From the NCBI GenBank assembly GCA_029243005.1, contig JAQWSV010000214.1, forward strand, positions 1 to 47,117: DNA of 47,117 nucleotides, read 5' to 3'. The translations under genes were made by a program, and so were the position numbers. This document shows positions 7,424 to 42,480 of this stretch, piece after piece (position 1 is the stretch's first letter; the number at the start of each line of letters is the position of its first letter). The notes beneath the pieces are model-generated. The model did not search any database. It was not told the DNA's origin and saw only the letters and a program-made list of their open reading frames with translations. The DNA comes from Woeseiaceae bacterium (lineage in GTDB: Bacteria; Pseudomonadota; Gammaproteobacteria; Steroidobacterales; Woeseiaceae).

Positions 7424-9064
7424 TTACTGACCAGGGCGCCCTGTGAATGCGGCCAGGACACCGCCGGTGATCAGTAGCCAGCCAGGCCACGTCGTTGCGG
7501 CGAGTGTGACGATGAGCGTTCCGGAAAGAATGACTGTTGCGCTCGCGGCCAGCGTAAATCGCTGGCGTTGTTGAAGCTTGAGCTGCTGGTGGATCTCCTC
7601 GAGTTCCGACGCACGAACGTCGAGGTTCAATCGGTCATGCTCGATCTGTTCCGAGAGATAGCGGACGATGCCGGGTAGCTTGCGAATTGAGTCGTGAATC
7701 TGCGGCAGGTCGTCTCTCAGTTGCTGCAGTGCTGCGCGCGGTCCGATCTGGCCCTCCATCCATTGACGCAGAATAGGATGCGCTGTCTTCCAAAGGTCCA
7801 GCTCGGGATACAGTTGTCGGCCCAGCCCTTCGATGTTGAACAGCGTCTTCTGCAACAGGATGAGCTGCGGCTGGATTTCCATGTTGAAGCGTCGCGCTGT
7901 CTCGAACAGGCTGATCATTACCTGGGCGAAAGAGATTTCCGACAATGGTTTGTTGAAAATCGGGTCGCAGACGGAACGCACAGCCGACTCGAGTTCATCG
8001 ATGCGGGTCTCCGCCGGCACCCAACCCGAGTCGATATGCAGTTTGGCAATCTGGTGGTAGTCGCGGTCGAAAAAGGCCAGGAAATTGCCCGCAAGGTACC
8101 GCTGATCCTTCGGATCCAGCGTGCCGACGATGCCGAAGTCGACCGCGGCATAGCGGGGTTTCTCCCGGTCGTCTACCGTGACGAATATGTTGCCGGGGTG
8201 CATGTCGGCATGAAAGAAGTTGTGTTTAAAGACCTGTGTGAAAAATATCTCGACGCCGTTTTCGGCCAGGACCTGGATATTCGCACCCGACGCCCGCAGT
8301 GCATCCATATCGCTGATCGGAATTCCGTTGATGCGTTCCTGTACCAGCACGGCCGGACGACAGTAGTCGTAGTAGATCTCTGGAACGTAGAGCAGATCCG
8401 AGCCCTCGAAATTGCGCTTCAGCTGCACCGTGTTGGCAGCTTCCCGCATGAGGTCGAGCTCATCGATGATCGTCTTTTCGTACTCTGCCACGACTTCGAG
8501 CGGCCGCAGTCGCTTGCCCGTTTCCCAGTAGGTATTTGCGAGCCCCGCCAGCGCTTGCAGCACGTCGAGGTCACGCTCAATTAGATCCCGTACCCCGGGG
8601 CGCAGCAGCTTGACGATGACCTCGGTGCCGTCTTGCAAGGCGGCGGTGTGTACCTGGGCGATCGATGCGGCTGCGAACGGTTCACGATCGAATCGCGAAA
8701 ACACTTCGTCGATGGGCTTGCCGTAAATGCCTTCCAGGATGTCCTTTGCCTCGTCCGCGGGAAAGGGCGGGACACGGTCCTGGAGCAAGGCCAGCTCATC
8801 AGCAATATCCGGCGGAAGGAGGTCACGGCGCGTCGAAATGGCTTGGCCAAACTTCACGAAGATCGGCCCGAGTTCTATTAGCGCGAGGCGTATGCGTTTG
8901 CCGAGTGACTCCGATACATCCCTGGCTTTCGGAAATAGCGCAAACAAAAATCGCAAGGGTCGCAGGAAGTGCGTCGCCGTGATGATCTCGTCGAGTCCGT
9001 GGCGTACCAGGACGCGTTGAATCTCGATCATGCGCAGCAAGGTTTTTCGGCGCCACACACTCAT
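7424..9064 (-). CDS. ubiB: Ubiquinone biosynthesis ATPase/kinase-like protein
   Basis: UbiB is a membrane-bound protein-kinase-like ATPase of the ABC1/ADCK family needed for ubiquinone synthesis, probably by helping to extract or present lipid intermediates. The 546-residue protein has the family motif KFGQAISTRRDLLPPD (KxGQ near 71), the Ala-rich nucleotide loop AAASIAQVH near 131, the catalytic-loop motif HADMHPGN and an Asp in AAVDFGIVG. Two hydrophobic segments at the C-terminus (TVILSGTLIVTLAA and WLLITGGVLAAF) anchor it in the inner membrane. The start ATG overlaps the ubiJ stop (ATGA). Confidence 0.96.
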   Translation of the reverse strand: MSVWRRKTLLRMIEIQRVLVRHGLDEIITATHFLRPLRFLFALFPKARDVSESLGKRIRLALIELGPIFVKFGQAISTRRDLLPPDIADELALLQDRVPPFPADEAKDILEGIYGKPIDEVFSRFDREPFAAASIAQVHTAALQDGTEVIVKLLRPGVRDLIERDLDVLQALAGLANTYWETGKRLRPLEVVAEYEKTIIDELDLMREAANTVQLKRNFEGSDLLYVPEIYYDYCRPAVLVQERINGIPISDMDALRASGANIQVLAENGVEIFFTQVFKHNFFHADMHPGNIFVTVDDREKPRYAAVDFGIVGTLDPKDQRYLAGNFLAFFDRDYHQIAKLHIDSGWVPAETRIDELESAVRSVCDPIFNKPLSEISFAQVMISLFETARRFNMEIQPQLILLQKTLFNIEGLGRQLYPELDLWKTAHPILRQWMEGQIGPRAALQQLRDDLPQIHDSIRKLPGIVRYLSEQIEHDRLNLDVRASELEEIHQQLKLQQRQRFTLAASATVILSGTLIVTLAATTWPGWLLITGGVLAAFTGRPGQ

Positions 9065-9669
9065 GCCCGCTCTTCTTCCAGCTTCTTCAGGCGAGCCTCA
9101 AGGCGGGCAACATCGTCACGCAGTGTGTCGACGTCGCTTCGAAATGCGTCGACTTCGTGCCGGCCCGGTACCGCCTGGCTCTCTTCCTGCAGATACTCAC
9201 CGATGTTCTGCTGCATCGTTGTCCGGGCATCCCGGGTCCAGCCGGTAACACCTCGAAAAAAACCGCTGATACTGTGTGCTGTGACGTCGCCGACGACAGT
9301 CGACAGCTCTTCCTCCAGGTCTGGCTGGCCGTAGCGCAAGAGTTTTCGAATCTGGCTGGCGACGATGGCGTCCCCTTCGATCACGACGGATCTGTCGCGA
9401 ATCAGGTCTTCCGCGGCGGGCCCTGCAAGGCGTGCGAGCGATAGTAGCGAGCCGCTGGCGATCACGTCAGGCTCATCGATGTAGTCGCCGGACAGGATGA
9501 CGCGATCATCGTTAACTGTCAGATACATCGCTAGCGCGGAGTTGGTTATACGCAAGGCAAAGGTCTTTCCGTCGAGTTCGTTGCACAGTGTTCGCGCCGG
9601 CGTCTTTGCGGTGATTTGCCGGTTGATCATTGCCGCAATGGGTCGCAGCAGGGGTTCCAGCGCGTTCAA
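9061..9669 (-). CDS. ubiJ: Ubiquinone biosynthesis accessory factor (SCP2 domain)
   Basis: UbiJ is a lipid-binding accessory protein of the soluble Ubi complex, carrying intermediates through an SCP2 fold. The 202-residue protein has the SCP2-like region at about 30-115 (ELDGKTFALRITNSALAMYL, then VIASGSLLSLARLA), followed by a helical C-terminus ending in a coiled coil (VDTLRDDVARLEARLKKLEE). It lies between ubiE and ubiB, as in many gammaproteobacteria, and its TGA overlaps the ubiB ATG. The identification rests on the domain plus this conserved context. Confidence 0.92.
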   Translation of the reverse strand: MNALEPLLRPIAAMINRQITAKTPARTLCNELDGKTFALRITNSALAMYLTVNDDRVILSGDYIDEPDVIASGSLLSLARLAGPAAEDLIRDRSVVIEGDAIVASQIRKLLRYGQPDLEEELSTVVGDVTAHSISGFFRGVTGWTRDARTTMQQNIGEYLQEESQAVPGRHEVDAFRSDVDTLRDDVARLEARLKKLEEERA

Positions 9670-27214: not shown

Positions 27215-27658
27215 CTAGTTGATCATCGAGTAGTCTGTCGCATCCATATAAACGTTTTCAATTTTATCGACGATCGGACCGTCACTGATCGATGCCTGAT
27301 AAGCGGCCTGCCACTCGGGATCCGCAATGAAAGCTGCCCAACTAGCTTTGCCTGCTTCACGACTGTCATGTGATAGCACGTATATAAGTGTGTTTTCTGC
27401 GAGCGGAGCGTCTTGCGGAACGAAGTAGCCGATGTTGGTCATGCCGTGTCGCTCAAACAGCCCGATCGTATGATTCGTAAAGCGTGCATGTAGTGCATCT
27501 AGACGACCAGGATATGTCGTGTAGGTCCGAAGCTCGAACACACGTTCGCCTGATTGTGCCTCAGCGACGCTGGCAAGCTGAATCATGCTTCCGGAAATAA
27601 TACCGCAAGCAAATATAGTCAGGCCAAGAAGGTAGTTGTTTCGACATTTTCTGAACAT
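27215..27658 (-). CDS. Exported NIPSNAP-family protein
   Basis: This 147-residue protein has an N-terminal hydrophobic segment (YLLGLTIFACGIISGSMI, about 9-26), then a NIPSNAP dimeric alpha-beta barrel. The hallmark VFELRTYTTYPGRLDALHARF is near 40, followed by FERHGMTNIGYFVPQ and later WAAFIADPEWQAAYQAS. NIPSNAP domains are ferredoxin-like folds with mostly unknown roles. The signal peptide or anchor places it outside the cytoplasm. It faces the NAPRT gene convergently and lies beyond the end of the ribose-type transporter operon. Confidence 0.88.
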   Translation of the reverse strand: MFRKCRNNYLLGLTIFACGIISGSMIQLASVAEAQSGERVFELRTYTTYPGRLDALHARFTNHTIGLFERHGMTNIGYFVPQDAPLAENTLIYVLSHDSREAGKASWAAFIADPEWQAAYQASISDGPIVDKIENVYMDATDYSMIN

Positions 27659-27791: not shown

Positions 27792-28799
27792 TTACGACTT
27801 GAAGAATCGCTTAAAGTAACTCCCGATTCCGCCCGAGCGATTACGATATACGTCGAGAATCACTGCCGCGATAATAACAAGGCCGGTAATAACCCGTTTC
27901 ATTGGCTCAGTGGCGCCAATCTGGGCCAGTCCGGTTTGCAGGACTGCGATAATCAGGACACCGAGCAGGGTGTTGACGACGGAGCCCTTGCCACCCGATA
28001 AGCTTGTGCCACCGACGACCACCGCCGCAATTGCGGAGAGCTCCAGGCCAATGCCGGCGTTCGGGTCTGCGGATTGCAGGTAGCCAACCTGAAAAAGTCC
28101 TCCCAGTCCGGCTAGCAATCCGGCCAGTGAGAACACCATCAGCTTGATCCGTGAAACGTTGACGCCTGACAGGTGCACGGCTTCTTCATTCGTACCAACG
28201 GCGATCATCCGGCGGCCGAAGACGGTACGTGACAGCAAAAGTTGCCCAAGCACCACGGTGGCGATGGCGACGAACAATGCTGGTGACAAGTTTATTCCGG
28301 GAAGCGGTGCGCTGACGGACTCGACGGTAGACCCGATGTACTTTGTCTGCGATCCTGTCACCAGATACGCACCCCCCCTGGCAATTTCGAGCATGCCGAG
28401 CGTGACGATGAACGAGGGCACGCTCCAGCGGGTCACGACCAATCCGTTGAATGCACCGCATGCCAATCCAGTCATCAGGCAAAGGATTCCGGCGAACCAG
28501 AGTGGTGCATTCATATCTAAAAGTGCAAGGCCCAGGACTGAGCCACTTAGCGCCATGACCGAACCGACCGACAAGTCGATGCCGGCAATGATTAATACGA
28601 ATGTCATGCCGACGGCAATGACCGTCAAAGACGGTATCTGGTTGGCAAGCGTTGTAAACGTCAATACGGAGAAGAAATACTCGCTTTGCACACTGAAAAA
28701 CAAGATAAGTGCGAGCAATGCACCGAGCAAACCAAAATACTCGCCGCGAAAAATTCCGGTTCGCTGCGTCAATGGCACTTTTTCGTCAGGCTGCGGCAT
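27792..28799 (-). CDS. Ribose-type (RbsC-like) ABC transporter permease
   Basis: This inner-membrane permease of about 335 residues has 8-10 predicted helices and the BPD_transp_2 signature. It shows TVIAVGMTFVLIIAGIDLSV near 62-81, the coupling region GTNEEAVHLSGVNVSRIKL, and SAIAAVVVGGTSLSGGKGSV near 260. These match the RbsC/XylH/AraH sugar family, which also includes nucleoside permeases. I start at the ATG at 28799 (MPQPDEKVPLTQ), which overlaps the ATPase gene by 14 nt; the frame extends to 28814. It is the third gene of the binding protein-ATPase-permease operon. Confidence 0.92.
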   Translation of the reverse strand: MPQPDEKVPLTQRTGIFRGEYFGLLGALLALILFFSVQSEYFFSVLTFTTLANQIPSLTVIAVGMTFVLIIAGIDLSVGSVMALSGSVLGLALLDMNAPLWFAGILCLMTGLACGAFNGLVVTRWSVPSFIVTLGMLEIARGGAYLVTGSQTKYIGSTVESVSAPLPGINLSPALFVAIATVVLGQLLLSRTVFGRRMIAVGTNEEAVHLSGVNVSRIKLMVFSLAGLLAGLGGLFQVGYLQSADPNAGIGLELSAIAAVVVGGTSLSGGKGSVVNTLLGVLIIAVLQTGLAQIGATEPMKRVITGLVIIAAVILDVYRNRSGGIGSYFKRFFKS

Positions 28800-30294
28800 C
28801 GTCGGTGTACGCACTGAATGAAGCCGCCATTATTTTTTCGGCCGACCATTCGTCTCTTTGAAAGTCCGCAGTAAGCTGACCGTTCGAAAGAACGGCAATA
28901 CGGTCGCAAATTGTTGTTAACTCCTGAATCTCGCTTGAAACGATAACAATGGCTTTGCCCTGTGCCGCGAGATCGTATAGCAACCGATAAATTGCCTCCC
29001 TCGTCTGAATGTCGATGCCACGTGTTGGCTCGTCGAACAGTAAGACCTTGCAGTCTTTCATCAGCCAACGGGAGATGATCACTTTCTGCTGATTGCCGCC
29101 GCTCAGTTCGGAGACAGACTGGGAAATACCGGTACAGTTGATTTCGAGTTTCTGTCGATACGCTTCGACTGATGTCTGTTCCATTTCTTTGTCTATCCAG
29201 CCGAGTGCCTGGCGAAAGTTCTGCATAGACGCGAGCGACATATTGCTGGTGATTGACCGGTCCTGCAGCAGGCCTTGGCGGCTGCGATCTTCCGGAATAA
29301 GGCCGATACCGTGCCTGATGCCCTCCTGCGGCGACTCGAAAATTAGCTGGTCGTCGCAGTCTTCAAGCATGAGGTGGCCGTCATCGATCCTGTCCGCCCC
29401 AAATATTGCTCGCAGCAACTCCGTTCTGCCAGAGCCTATCAGCCCTGCCAAACCCAAGATTTCACCATAGTGAATATCTAGGTTGACGTTATTCAGCAGG
29501 CTGTCACTGAGATTACGAACGCGGATAGCTGACGAAATGTCGGACAAAATCGCTTGTTGTTGCCCCTGCTCCAGGTCCCCAGCCATCAGACGCACGATCT
29601 CGTCGGCGTTGAGATCAGCAACGCGGGAGGTACTCACTGACTGGCCATTCTTGAGCACAGTAATGTCATCGGCGATGCGCTTGAACTCGCTGATTCGATG
29701 ACTGACGTAAATGATGCCAGTGCCTTGTGCCTTCAGCTCTTCGATCTTCTTGAACAGCAGGTCGATTTGCGGGTCCGTCAGCGCTGCCGTTGGTTCGTCG
29801 AGAATCAGAATCCTGCAGGGATGAATGAGTACACGTGCAATTTCGATCAACTGACGTTGGCCGATGCCGAGCGACCCGACATTCTGCTTCGGATCCAGCC
29901 CCTGAAGTCCGATCGATTCAAGCGCTCGCCGGGACTGGTCATAAAGCCGATCAAAATCAATTACGCCCCGTCGTTTCGGCAGCTCTGAAAAAAACAGGTT
30001 TTCGCCAATGCTGAGCGTATCGATCAGGTGAGGTTCTTGCATGACGATGCGAACGCCGTGACCTTCGGCGTCCACCACGGATTCGGGGTGATAAGCGATT
30101 CCCTCGATCTGCATGTTGCCCGCATCATGCGGTGTCAGTCCGCAGATGATCCGGCACAATGTTGTTTTGCCCGCACCGTTTGCGCCAACCAGTGCGTGAA
30201 CCTGCCCGGGTGCCACATCAAAATTTACACCTTCCAATACCGGTACTGCGTAACGCTTGTGCAGTTCGGATACGGACAGTAGCTTGGCGCTCAC
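28786..30294 (-). CDS. Ribose-type (RbsA-like) ABC transporter ATPase with two nucleotide-binding domains
   Basis: This 502-residue cytosolic subunit energises sugar import. The first domain has Walker A GANGAGKTTLCRI near 38, signature LGIGQRQLIEIARVL and Walker B ILILDEPTAAL. The second has a degenerate Walker A GLIGSGRTELLRA near 283, signature LSGGNQQKVIISRWL and Walker B VLLFDEPTRGID. This asymmetric pair is typical of RbsA/MglA/XylG. It lies between the binding-protein gene (9 nt upstream) and the permease gene (overlapping downstream). Confidence 0.94.
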   Translation of the reverse strand: MSAKLLSVSELHKRYAVPVLEGVNFDVAPGQVHALVGANGAGKTTLCRIICGLTPHDAGNMQIEGIAYHPESVVDAEGHGVRIVMQEPHLIDTLSIGENLFFSELPKRRGVIDFDRLYDQSRRALESIGLQGLDPKQNVGSLGIGQRQLIEIARVLIHPCRILILDEPTAALTDPQIDLLFKKIEELKAQGTGIIYVSHRISEFKRIADDITVLKNGQSVSTSRVADLNADEIVRLMAGDLEQGQQQAILSDISSAIRVRNLSDSLLNNVNLDIHYGEILGLAGLIGSGRTELLRAIFGADRIDDGHLMLEDCDDQLIFESPQEGIRHGIGLIPEDRSRQGLLQDRSITSNMSLASMQNFRQALGWIDKEMEQTSVEAYRQKLEINCTGISQSVSELSGGNQQKVIISRWLMKDCKVLLFDEPTRGIDIQTREAIYRLLYDLAAQGKAIVIVSSEIQELTTICDRIAVLSNGQLTADFQRDEWSAEKIMAASFSAYTDDAAA

Positions 30295-30303
30295 GACTGA
30301 TTA

Positions 30304-31266
30304 TCAGAGGTCACTGGCTGTAATCAGGTCGACAGGTGTTTTGTAGTCGTCAGGCACGGTTCCGTCATTCAGTATTTGTAACGCGTACTCGATGCCATAG
30401 ACGGCGAGTTGATGGCCGTACTGATCAGCGGTAGCCAGCATGTCGCCGCCTTGTAAGAGTTCGTGGGTTGCGCTGATGTTGTCAAAACCGACAACCTGGA
30501 TCTGACCGGTCTTGCCGGCTTGGCGAACGGCGGCAACTGCGCCGATTGCCATATTGTCGTTACTGCACAGCAGCGCTTTCAGGTTCGGATGCTCGGCGAT
30601 CAGCGCTGAGGCGATGGTGCTGGCTTCTGCCTGATGCCAGCTTCCGTCTTGGACGCTTATTATATTCGCGCCCACGGATGCCATCGCATCTTCAAATCCC
30701 TGTTCCCGCTGCTGCGCGTTGAAGGCGGTACTGATGCCGCCGATGATGGCAACCTCATCACCGGCATTGAGGTCTTTCGCTAGGTAATCGCCTACTTTCT
30801 TTGCGCCCTCCCGGTTGTCCGGGCCAACGAAAGGCACGTTGATGCCGGCTTCCGCGATCAGTGCTGCATCAAGTTGATTGTCAATGTTGATTACAACAAT
30901 GCCCTGTGCTGTGGCTCGCCGCACAATCGGAATCAGTGCCTTCGAATCTGCTGGCGCCAGAACGATCACATCGACTCGCAGTGCAATCATTTGCTCGACC
31001 AGCGCGACCTGCTCAGCCAGCGCGGCCTCATCCTTGATGCCATTTAGAATTAATTCATAGGAATCAGAATTCTCGGCGTGATGTTGTCGAGTACCATCTG
31101 CCATGTTGACGAAGAATTCGTTGGCTAGGGACTTCACGATGACGGCGATCCGGGGCTTGGCAACTTCGTCTGCTTTGGTGGCCGATCCCTGTTGCCGGCT
31201 GCATCCAGAAACCAGCAAGGTACCAATAACAGCCAGAACCACCGCACTTTTTATTATAATTTTCAC
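30304..31266 (-). CDS. Ribose-type (RbsB-like) substrate-binding lipoprotein
   Basis: This 320-residue binding protein has a lipoprotein signal peptide, with lipobox LLVSGC (Cys22). It is a periplasmic-binding-protein-like I fold: PRIAVIVKSLANEFFVNMADG, DVIVLAPADSKALIPIVRRA, GIVVINIDNQLDAALI, and LLCSNDNMAIGAVAAVRQAG. Relatives bind ribose, galactose or nucleosides. It is divergent from the nucleoside hydrolase gene across 77 nt, which suggests that ribose released from nucleosides is a likely ligand (inference). Lipid anchoring is unusual for gram-negative sugar-binding proteins but not unknown. Confidence 0.92.
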   Translation of the reverse strand: MKIIIKSAVVLAVIGTLLVSGCSRQQGSATKADEVAKPRIAVIVKSLANEFFVNMADGTRQHHAENSDSYELILNGIKDEAALAEQVALVEQMIALRVDVIVLAPADSKALIPIVRRATAQGIVVINIDNQLDAALIAEAGINVPFVGPDNREGAKKVGDYLAKDLNAGDEVAIIGGISTAFNAQQREQGFEDAMASVGANIISVQDGSWHQAEASTIASALIAEHPNLKALLCSNDNMAIGAVAAVRQAGKTGQIQVVGFDNISATHELLQGGDMLATADQYGHQLAVYGIEYALQILNDGTVPDDYKTPVDLITASDL

Positions 31267-31343: not shown

Positions 31344-32330
31344 ATGGAAACCAGAAGGCACTTCCTCCAGTACTCAATAGCAATGATGGCCGGCCTCACC
31401 GCCTGTAGCCAGTCAGGCAGGTCCACGGCCAACAAAATCCCCGTCATCCTGGATACCGATATCGGTGACGACATCGACGATACCTGGGCATTGCTGATGC
31501 TGCTGCGTATGCCGCAGTTCGATGTAAAACTTGCGGTCGGCGACTACGGCAATGCCATCTACCGGGCCCGATTGCTCGCGAAGCTCCTGGAGGTCACGGG
31601 CCGCACTGATGTGCCGGTAGGCGTTGGCATTGGTCGGACGGATAATCCGGGTAATCAAAGTGGCTGGTTACTGGATTACAACTATCGCGCTTTCCCAGGC
31701 GCCATGCATCGCGATGGGGTGCAGGCCATCATCGACACGATTCACGAATCTCCGGAACCGGTAACGTTACTCTGTCTCGGACCCGTCCCGAATATTGCGG
31801 AAGCGCTTAAACGCGATCCGTCGATTGCCAGCAATGCGCGCATAGTAGGCATGTACGGATCCATCTATACAGGATATGAAGGCGAGGAATCACCAGTAGC
31901 GGAGTGGAATGTTCGCGCCGACCCGAGATCGTTACGGGCATTGTTCGCTGCACCGTGGGACATCACGATTACACCACTGGACACCTGCGGCCTGGTCGTA
32001 CTCGACGGCGATAATTACCAGCGCATTCACAATAGCAACGATCCCTGGCTAAAGGTGCTGATCGACAATTACAAGGTGTGGTTGCCGAATGCGGAATATA
32101 TGGATCCTGCAACGGATCCAACCAAGGTAAGCTCAACACTGTTTGACACGGTAGCCGTTTACCTCGCCGCGGAACAAGATCTATTTGAAATGCAGGATTT
32201 GTCCCTGCGTGTTACTGATGATGGCTACACGGTCATAGATGGAGACAACGGCCGAAACGTACATTGCGCGATCGGTTGGAAGGATCTTCCGGCTTTCGAG
32301 AAAGTACTGACAGGCATCTTGCTTGGTTAA
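31344..32330 (+). CDS. Exported (Tat) lipoprotein nucleoside hydrolase
   Basis: This 328-residue member of the inosine/uridine nucleoside N-ribohydrolase family should split ribonucleosides into base and ribose. The calcium-binding aspartate cluster is ILDTDIGDDIDDTWAL (Asp37, Asp39, Asp45, Asp46), with VAEWNVRADP near 190 and the late Asp in SSTLFDTVAVY. The N-terminus is unusual: a Tat twin-arginine motif TRRHFLQ (Arg4-Arg5) followed by lipobox LTAC (Cys21). It is therefore predicted to be folded in the cytoplasm, exported and lipid-anchored, whereas most nucleoside hydrolases are cytosolic. The divergent ribose-type importer could take up the product. Confidence 0.9.
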   Translation: METRRHFLQYSIAMMAGLTACSQSGRSTANKIPVILDTDIGDDIDDTWALLMLLRMPQFDVKLAVGDYGNAIYRARLLAKLLEVTGRTDVPVGVGIGRTDNPGNQSGWLLDYNYRAFPGAMHRDGVQAIIDTIHESPEPVTLLCLGPVPNIAEALKRDPSIASNARIVGMYGSIYTGYEGEESPVAEWNVRADPRSLRALFAAPWDITITPLDTCGLVVLDGDNYQRIHNSNDPWLKVLIDNYKVWLPNAEYMDPATDPTKVSSTLFDTVAVYLAAEQDLFEMQDLSLRVTDDGYTVIDGDNGRNVHCAIGWKDLPAFEKVLTGILLG

Positions 32331-40678: not shown

Positions 40679-41572
40679 ATGCGACTGGGAATCGACCTTG
40701 GTGGCACCAAAATCGAAATTCTTGCACTCAATGAAGCGGGTGAGGAGTTGTTGTGCAAACGCGTTGCAACGCCCAGAGAAAATTACTCTGCAACCTTAGA
40801 TTCCATCAGGGATCTTATACTCTCGGCTGAGAGTGACCTGGGCGAAGTCTGCACAGTTGGTATAGGCACACCGGGCTCGCCGTCACCTGCAACAGGCCTG
40901 ATGCGAAACTGCAATTCCACTTGGCTGAATGGCCAACCCTTTAAGCAAGATATGGAAGGCTTACTCGGCAGGGAAATTCGTATCAGCAACGACGCCAACT
41001 GCTTTGCCTTGTCGGAAGCAACCGATGGCGCAGGCGCAGACGCGGAAACTGTTTTTGGCGTCATTATTGGAACCGGATGCGGTGGCGGTATTGTTGTTAA
41101 TAATAAACTTGTCGATGGACCAAATGCTTGTGGTGGCGAATGGGGGCACAATTCACTGCCCTGGCCAGTGGAGAGTGAGCTTCAATCTACGCAATGCTGG
41201 TGTGGCCTGAGCGGCTGTATTGAGACGTTCTTATCAGGTACTGGTCTTGCCGATGATTACGAACGTGAATTTCGGCACCGTGCTGGCGCGCCGGAAATCA
41301 TCCGGGCTGCAGACGGCGGTGACGAAAATGCAGAAACTATCGTTCGTCGTTACGAGTCTCGTCTGGCCAGAAGCCTCGCACAAATCATTAATACCATCGA
41401 CCCAGACGTCATAGTATTGGGTGGTGGGATGTCTAATGTCGAGCGGTTATATAAGAGTGTGCCCGCAATCTGGTCAGACTATGTTTTTTCTGACACCGCA
41501 GTAACCCCCCTGCTTGCACCCAGGTTTGGAGACTCCAGTGGCGTACGTGGCGCTGCCTGGCTATGGGACTAA
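40679..41572 (+). CDS. ROK family sugar kinase (fructokinase-like)
   Basis: This 297-residue ROK kinase starts MRLGIDLGGTKIEILAL with the ATP-binding phosphate motif. It has the catalytic Asp105 in NDANCFALSEA and the ROK zinc site His157, Cys173, Cys175 and Cys180 (CGGEWGHN and CWCGLSGC). The EWGHNSLPW segment resembles the manno(fructo)kinase Mak group, so fructose or a related ketose is a reasonable guess. It is convergent with the chimeric epimerase gene, with a 6-nt gap between the two stop codons; a ketose kinase next to ketose epimerase remains is suggestive. Confidence 0.9.
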   Translation: MRLGIDLGGTKIEILALNEAGEELLCKRVATPRENYSATLDSIRDLILSAESDLGEVCTVGIGTPGSPSPATGLMRNCNSTWLNGQPFKQDMEGLLGREIRISNDANCFALSEATDGAGADAETVFGVIIGTGCGGGIVVNNKLVDGPNACGGEWGHNSLPWPVESELQSTQCWCGLSGCIETFLSGTGLADDYEREFRHRAGAPEIIRAADGGDENAETIVRRYESRLARSLAQIINTIDPDVIVLGGGMSNVERLYKSVPAIWSDYVFSDTAVTPLLAPRFGDSSGVRGAAWLWD

Positions 41573-41578
41573 GCTGAA

Positions 41579-42361
41579 TTAAGCTCGCTTTATTGCTGCG
41601 TGTAGCTCAGCGTCCATGAAATTCTTGGCATGCGTGGCAAGATCTTCGCCATCCGACCACAAGTTTCGCCACACCGCCAGTGCCGTTGATAGCTTCGGGT
41701 CGACCACCGCCGATGAGAACGATTCAAACGTAATGGTTCCCATGTAGTCGATGTCAGCCAGGTTGCGGAAAATTGTTCGAAAGTCGATTGTACCCGTACC
41801 CAGATAATCGCGATGGCTCTCGCCAACGTGAAAATAACCCAGCATGTCGCCACACGTCTTGATCGACGCAGCGAGATCGCCTTCCTCAATGTTCATGTGA
41901 TAGCTATCCAGGTGGACTTTAATGTTGTCTGACCCCGATTCCCTGATGAAGTCCATGGCTTGAGCACCGGTGTTGATCAGATTACTTTCATAGCGGTTGA
42001 CCGCCTCCAGCCCCAGGGTAATTCCTGAAGCCTTAGCCTTTTCCGCCAGCCGCGCCAACACTGGTTCCAGCACCCCTGCATCGTTCGGCACGACACCGAT
42101 CGCATCGACGCCCTGCGCGATCAGATCTTCAATCGCGCGCACTTGGAGCGCCGGATCTGTACTCGTCGGACCGATCATGAAGGCATCGATGCCCAACTCA
42201 TCGGCGCGCGTCTTAATGCCAGCCTCCATCGAGTTAAACCACGGAATTCCGCCAATCTTTACGACTACACCAACGCGCGATGCATCTTGCGCGAACGCTG
42301 GCATTAATCCGGCAATTGTCAGTGCCAACACACCAATCAACAGCTTTGCAAAATTTCTCAT
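41579..42361 (-). CDS. Chimeric protein: sugar-binding protein N-lobe fused to C-terminal half of a ketose 3-epimerase
   Basis: This 260-residue open frame joins two families. Residues 1-25 are a signal peptide (MRNFAKLLIGVLALTIAG, cut near AFA). Residues 28-105 match the first lobe of an LsrB/RhaS-type sugar-binding protein: RVGVVVKIGGIPWFNSMEAG, GPTSTDPALQVRAIEDLIAQ and VDAIGVVPNDAGVLEP. From about 106 (LAEKAKASGITLGLEAVNRY) it is the second half of a D-tagatose/D-psicose 3-epimerase barrel. It keeps metal ligands Glu119, Asp152, His178 and Glu213 plus Glu125, His155 and Arg184, at exactly the family spacing as I recall it. The binding protein lacks its second lobe and the barrel lacks strands 1-4. 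The start at 42361 has AAGGAAAA upstream. It is either a deletion scar or a real hybrid. Confidence 0.85.
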   Translation of the reverse strand: MRNFAKLLIGVLALTIAGLMPAFAQDASRVGVVVKIGGIPWFNSMEAGIKTRADELGIDAFMIGPTSTDPALQVRAIEDLIAQGVDAIGVVPNDAGVLEPVLARLAEKAKASGITLGLEAVNRYESNLINTGAQAMDFIRESGSDNIKVHLDSYHMNIEEGDLAASIKTCGDMLGYFHVGESHRDYLGTGTIDFRTIFRNLADIDYMGTITFESFSSAVVDPKLSTALAVWRNLWSDGEDLATHAKNFMDAELHAAIKRA

Positions 42362-42480
42362 TCGTTTTCCTTTTCGGAAAGTATGCCCCAAGAACGAAAG
42401 TGGTGCCCGACCAGCAGTAGTCGCACTCCTGAACGAAAGGCTTTACGTCGAGGATGATCGCGAGCAGCTAGCGCACGGAG

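Follow-up and report, generated by a model that had tools for sequence, protein, structure and literature searches.

A putative deletion-born chimera of a periplasmic sugar-binding protein and a ketose 3-epimerase in a Woeseiaceae draft genome

Deletion-born gene fusions across bacteria have been surveyed by Kaul, Rossine, Brinda and Baym (2026; PMC12803068). In the sections of that survey cited here, narX of M. tuberculosis is traced to a 4.6-kb loss within the nitrate-reduction operon, no clear new beneficial function is identified for any deletion-born fusion, and uncultured environmental lineages are called sparsely sampled. The open reading frame described here, in which the front of a periplasmic sugar-binding protein is joined to the back of a ketose 3-epimerase, lies in a 47,117-nucleotide stretch of DNA (the window) from a marine bacterium of such a lineage, and by the features tested (an open frame, split relatives and an ancestral split) we class it as a deletion-born fusion of the Kaul et al. 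(2026) kind. Like narX and the yjcO-lysU fusion of the LTEE, as both are presented in the cited sections, it would be a kilobase-scale in-frame deletion fusion with split relatives and no new function shown, and like narX it would have arisen within one operon. Unlike narX, for which these sections report three recognisable domains, its breakpoints cut both domains mid-fold, and unlike yjcO-lysU, for which they report no catalytic domain, it retains a complete metal site; unlike the fusions of Kaul et al., it is known from one draft genome. A second point of comparison is provided by engineered chimeras of CheY or NarL with a piece of HisF, in which a flavodoxin-like fragment is likewise combined with part of a TIM barrel (PMC8250049), the binding-protein lobe being counted as flavodoxin-like in our own reading. 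Those chimeras were designed and are reported, in the part of the paper cited, as constructible barrels, whereas the present one is either natural or an assembly product and would comprise three plus four strand units as judged from the parental folds. A narrow look through the open-access literature for a periplasmic binding protein/TIM barrel epimerase fusion chimera found no paper.

The fusion open reading frame occupies positions 41579..42361 of the window on the minus strand, with an ATG at 42361 and a stop codon at 41581-41579, and encodes 260 amino acids. It is present in the ORF list and contains no internal stop, as the preliminary description had stated without naming the strand; the plus strand across 41579-42361 contains several stops. 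A search of its own genome returned one uninterrupted full-length match and one weak match (27% identity, E 0.017) to the binding protein of another transporter. An in-frame TTG at 42391, upstream of the ATG, would add 10 amino acids, and a promoter/terminator scan gave one promoter-like site (0.9 expected) and no terminator. Residues 1-24 (42290..42361, minus strand; MRNFAK...PAFA|QD) were read by eye as the signal peptide of the sugar-binding-protein parent, with an n-region, an h-region and an AxA site, and align with the N-termini of seven intact binding proteins. Residues 25-103 (42053..42289, minus strand) correspond to what are, from the fold, probably the first three beta-alpha units of a RhaS/LsrB-type periplasmic sugar-binding protein, and residues 101-260 (41582..42061, minus strand) to strands 5-8 of an L-ribulose/D-allulose 3-epimerase, the latter by residue spacing and by homology to 3vyl, 5zfs and the intact epimerase of a genome of the same genus, Woeseia sp. 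SI072_bin43 (G024). A ROK-family sugar kinase gene (40679..41572, plus strand; Pfam ROK, E 2.5e-81) is convergent with the fusion.

That the chimera is real in sequence, one open frame composed of parts of two genes, is confirmed. The division between a sugar-binding-protein front and strands 5-8 of a ketose 3-epimerase, as originally proposed, is given alike by Pfam and NCBIfam, whose domain matches stop and start at the junction. Pfam Peripla_BP_4 covers residues 30-108 (profile positions 1-79 of 258, E 4.5e-19) and AP_endonuc_2 residues 101-221 (profile positions 107-234 of 249, E 3.9e-25), while the NCBIfam RhaS model covers residues 30-115 and the D-psicose 3-epimerase model residues 103-239 (model positions 134-268 of 287), with scores below the respective cutoffs (44 against 342 bits and 129 against 300 bits). 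In sequence searches of the PDB the N-half matches sugar-binding or LacI-like binding proteins, and it is 67-68% identical to binding proteins of three same-family genomes, 67-79% identical to its nearest intact relatives and 59% identical to one in another family of the class. The C-half finds as its best PDB matches the ketose 3-epimerases 7cj9, 3vyl and 5zfs (E 6.7e-53 to 2.3e-50, with 1.7e-52 to 3vyl and 2.3e-50 to 5zfs).

The active site of this family has been described for MetLRE, where the cited part of the report gives Glu152, Asp185, His211 and Glu246 as metal ligands, Glu158, His188 and an Arg (printed as 211) as binding sugar O1, and His12 and Ser69, both in the N-half, as holding sugar O5 and O6 (PMC8167858). 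When the chimera is compared with the L-ribulose 3-epimerase/D-tagatose 3-epimerase family (3vyl, 5zfs, 7cj4, 2qul), its residues 101-259 align gap-free to the second half of 3vyl. It carries E119, E125, D152, H155, H178, R184 and E213 at spacings of 6/33/3/26/6/35, exactly those claimed for the metal and substrate residues beforehand; all four metal ligands (E119, D152, H178 and E213) and the C-half substrate residues are retained at the same spacing as in MetLRE, whose substrate arginine is presumably residue 217. Strands 1-4 and their substrate contacts are absent from the chimera: homology begins at position 134 of the 287-position model, a full (beta/alpha)8 barrel with counterparts of His12 and Ser69 is not present, and nothing corresponding to residues 1-129 of the G024 epimerase was found in the chimera's own genome. 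Compared with RhaS/LsrB-type binding proteins, the chimera keeps the signal peptide and the first part of the N-terminal lobe and is missing about two thirds of the protein, the second lobe included. Two complete lobes are found in neither the chimera nor the genome searches, from which the remainder is absent, whereas Peripla_BP_4 spans profile positions 2-258 in the intact binding protein of a same-family genome (G092).

The position of the junction is defined by DNA comparison with the G024 epimerase and with the binding proteins of G092, a second same-family genome (G094) and a Kiloniellales locus (L035). The chimera tracks the binding proteins through EPVLA and the epimerase from VLARLAEKAKASGI onward, and the parents switch at residues 101-103 (VLA, window 42061-42053). 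Within these codons (42053..42061, minus strand) lies an 8-base microhomology, GTGYTGGC, in the same frame in both parents, of which L035 shares fewer bases. A join inside this stretch preserves an open frame, since its reading frame is common to the two genes. Deletion independent of RecA is compatible with a direct repeat of 8 bases, and the parental repeat in the chimera's own lineage may have been somewhat longer or shorter. The AKASGI turn at which the junction had been placed in the preliminary description proved to be wholly epimerase, being identical in intact G024, with the switch slightly upstream at VLA; the idea that a short homology guided the deletion gains an in-frame 8-base microhomology, but its proposed place was slightly wrong.

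Intact versions of the operon are found in relatives. In G092 and G094, both of genus g11 in the same family, genes for the binding protein, the ATPase, two permeases and the epimerase are consecutive on one contig; in a third genome of genus g11 (G045) the operon pieces are split over two contigs, and the Kiloniellales locus has the same gene order as G092 and G094. Pfam identifies as full-length members the binding protein, ATPase, first permease and epimerase of G092, the second permease of G094 and the epimerase of G024. The VLA codons of the binding protein lie 4754 bp away from their epimerase counterparts in G092, 4752 bp in G094 and 4589 bp in L035. The in-frame collapse of a binding-protein...epimerase operon, put forward as the simplest explanation from the start, is strongly supported by the intact parents in relatives, the implied 4752-4754 bp deletion, its two breakpoints on one contig in each of G092 and G094, and the 8-base microhomology. 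As both parents occur as separate, full-length genes within the family and also in other classes, the split state would by parsimony be ancestral.

Within the genus, 2 of 12 genomes matched the chimera search, its own and that of Woeseia sp. SI072_bin43. The G024 contig (C170, 11,164 bases) corresponds to JABIUH010000142.1, with 8,917 compared bases identical, and encodes a complete 289-aa epimerase that is 90% identical to the chimera over the shared 159 aa. A ROK kinase gene is convergent with the epimerase gene there as in the window, the kinases being 82% identical. The gene neighbourhood of the epimerase differs between G024 and the window, and around the neighbouring amidohydrolase and M81 metallopeptidase genes no shared neighbours were found in four stretches from the genus. 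The G024 contig has only 53 bases left upstream of the epimerase before it ends, and searches of the G024 assembly found no close binding protein and no permease; given this contig end and these searches, this particular epimerase is not observed next to its binding-protein gene within the genus. It is the high end of the contig (L060) that stops where the deleted genes would be expected, and strain variants with and without the deletion could break the assembly at this point. Near the ROK-epimerase pair in G024 lies a xylose isomerase/xylulokinase-like block (names read by eye), and the same isomerase/kinase block occurs on another contig of the chimera's own genome (L081, G000:C106, 12665-15001), where the isomerase is 92% identical and the contig ends inside the kinase gene.

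The extent of divergence since the fusion was examined in the retained half. Over the 159 codons shared with G024 there are 16 amino-acid differences, and three methods give the epimerase half a dN of 0.049-0.055, a dS of 0.82-1.05 and a ratio of 0.05-0.06; the corresponding values for the ROK kinase are 0.105-0.112, 0.41-0.50 and 0.21-0.27. So little erosion of the retained half (dN/dS ~0.06) implies that the event is recent or that the half is still constrained, and the low ratio would fit a recent fusion and continued function of the retained half alike. If all 16 changes had accumulated after the fusion without selection, that phase would by our own estimate span about a tenth of the chimera branch (~358 nonsynonymous sites, half of dS). 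Conserved columns were counted and trees built with 14 closer epimerases, the chimera and G024, the more distant rows and duplicate copies of a locus being left out. Among the columns invariant in the 14 outgroups the chimera departs at 1 of 28 and G024 at 0 of 28; the one departure is at Gly185, beside the substrate residue Arg184, which is Asp in the chimera and not in G024. Position 185 is variable among more distant epimerases, and the Gly185Asp change is a hint, suggestive only, of relaxed constraint. For the N-half, where seven binding proteins agree fully in 55 columns, the chimera differs at 2 of these, once with S and once with T in place of A. Terminal branches measure 0.071 for the chimera and 0.049 for G024, a difference that is not clear.

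A structural model of the mature chimera has a mean pLDDT of 71.6. The C-half is mostly confident, with block means of 80-94 falling to 67 at its start, 59 after strand 8 and 76 at its end, while the N-half, for which the alignment is thin, scores 35-57 in its first 70 residues and lacks strands there. In the alignment used (A1), some epimerase rows begin with short pieces wrongly positioned in the N-half; re-aligning in two ways put the binding-protein rows in worse places, and those versions were not used. An intact binding protein, modelled as a control from an equally shallow alignment (3 sequences), had a mean pLDDT of 61.7, with 44-75 over the first 70 residues and one short strand, and since this control is itself too poor, the poor N-half of the chimera is not evidence of misfolding. 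The chimera model can be superimposed on epimerases from roughly their residue 46 onward (203 of 236 residues, Z 18.6, rmsd 3.0 to 8yeb), placing the fragment, in a result that carries little weight, as if it stood where strands 2-4 belong, one strand short. The structure prediction called for at the outset thus gave a confident epimerase half and, at low pLDDT, an overlay one strand short as had been counted, but an N-half with no strands, in a region where the thin-alignment control was also poor.

We consider it likely that these observations reflect the collapse by deletion of one sugar operon, probably recent, which left a probably non-enzymatic relic. In this model a deletion of ~4.75 kb in one ABC sugar operon would have taken out everything from the end of the binding-protein gene, through the genes for the ATPase and the two permeases, to the front of the ketose 3-epimerase gene, joining the remaining gene ends inside the 8-base microhomology, in the VLA frame common to both parents, to give the 260-aa open frame. 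The product would be secreted by means of the signal peptide of the binding protein, a predicted export, and would carry the epimerase half-barrel with its metal ligands but not the N-terminal half of the active site; the event would be recent and the protein a non-enzymatic relic of a lost sugar pathway. If the junction is present in cells, as we infer, the locus is a clean case, from an uncultured environmental lineage, of an open chimeric gene created by an intra-operon deletion, with breakpoints within two different alpha/beta folds and the entire metal site kept. A fresh relic, which is the likelier case, would show such fusions before decay, and annotators should be warned that Pfam hits to both halves do not amount to a bifunctional enzyme.

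The most serious competitor, less probable by a wide measure and still of some weight, is an assembly error in which the front of a binding protein was joined to the back of an epimerase, with the intervening operon dropped or two strains merged. The source genome is a draft of 326 contigs, 85.4% complete, the break of the G024 contig just upstream of the epimerase marks the region as possibly hard to assemble, and the deleted parts are absent from the whole assembly and not merely from the locus. In the chimera's own genome a search with an intact binding protein returned residues 2-108 at the fusion locus and, elsewhere, a paralogue of 27% identity and one stretch matching at chance level (E 0.26), the intact epimerase returned only residues 130-288, again at the fusion locus, two permease searches gave only one paralogue at 27-31% identity, and ATPase matches were at most 40% identical; the draft being 85% complete, the deleted parts could be unassembled. 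Against an artefact, the sequence common to both parents at the junction amounts to only about 8 bases, far under the k-mers of 21 or more that short-read assemblers need. When five 21-mers and seven 16-mers were taken from across the junction, every one had a single occurrence in the window and no match among the other loci compared, three own-genome copies being left out, and the contig extends 42 kb and 5 kb to either side of the junction. At the other extreme, an order of events in which an old fused gene was split by insertion of transporter genes in relatives is barely credible and was rejected: no points in its favour were found, both halves are incomplete fragments of widespread full-length families, and full-length separate genes exist in relatives from several classes.

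The kept metal ligands and C-half substrate residues could also belong to a working new protein in which the binding-protein fragment replaces strands 1-4. Such a protein might act in the periplasm as a metal-dependent sugar isomerase, or bind a sugar or a metal, and would be nature's parallel to the engineered CheY/HisF hybrids. The conservation of the retained half, a terminal branch little longer than that of intact G024 and the overlay of the model on epimerases along nearly its whole length agree with such a protein, as do the built barrels that CheY or NarL parts with a HisF piece have yielded, according to the cited part of that work (PMC8250049). We nevertheless find it improbable, as the N-half sugar contacts are lost, Gly185 is replaced in the chimera only, the N-half of the model scores below even its equally thin control, the overlay is expected from the confident C-half alone, a recent event gives a low dN/dS too, and the fusion occurs in no relative searched. 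A fold hybrid with an epimerase-like domain in the periplasm had been entertained in the preliminary description; the retention of the metal ligands is in its favour, but other positive support was not found, and the loss of the half with the His12 and Ser69 contacts and the Gly185 change speak against it. Slighter still are the chances of a natural cross-fold recombinant, in which strands 1-4 of the epimerase were swapped for three beta-alpha units and the resulting secreted, metal-binding half-barrel hybrid was kept by selection. If true, nature would have been caught at the fragment recombination so far built in the laboratory, and the protein, if expressed and folded, would be a natural test of fold evolution by recombination of beta-alpha fragments.

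A search of related genomes for the same fusion, as had been suggested, recovered the chimera's own genome but no second carrier in the family, order and class sets, a carrier being defined by a single match that takes in both the binding-protein domain and the epimerase half. With the thresholds applied, matches came from 19 of 107 family, 5 of 396 order and 4 of 369 class genomes, the own genome being counted and the sets overlapping; the latter two sets each sample a larger group. A scan of 84,980 species genomes, which reaches close relatives only, found 30 loci. Weak alignments to single epimerase ORFs that start before the junction (lowest residue 78; 56 by tblastn) were taken as chance extension. 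Of 930 plasmid records with matches, 12 span 80% or more of the query; of the 10 of these 12 that are among the matches listed, 9 contain two annotated genes and 1 is unannotated, and H2 carries separate genes. Among the 30 loci of the species-genome scan, the one with a match extending from residue 22 into the epimerase, a locus of an Actinomycetes MAG (L028) with query residues 22-256 matched in 939 bases, was considered as a second fusion and rejected, as its epimerase gene (7596-8510) abuts a separate binding-protein gene (8511-9620). In this arrangement (7596-9620) the epimerase stop codon is followed by the GTG of the binding protein, and a small change could fuse the two genes.

The window also contains a second, distant sugar ABC system (27792-31266; permease, ATPase and binding protein), 27-32% identical to the lost parts, which adjoins a nucleoside hydrolase gene (31344-32330; Pfam IU_nuc_hydro). 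Beside this second transporter is a gene for a small NIPSNAP-family protein (window 27215-27658), and another NIPSNAP-family protein is encoded directly upstream of the intact binding-protein gene of G092 (L056, 3683-4126).
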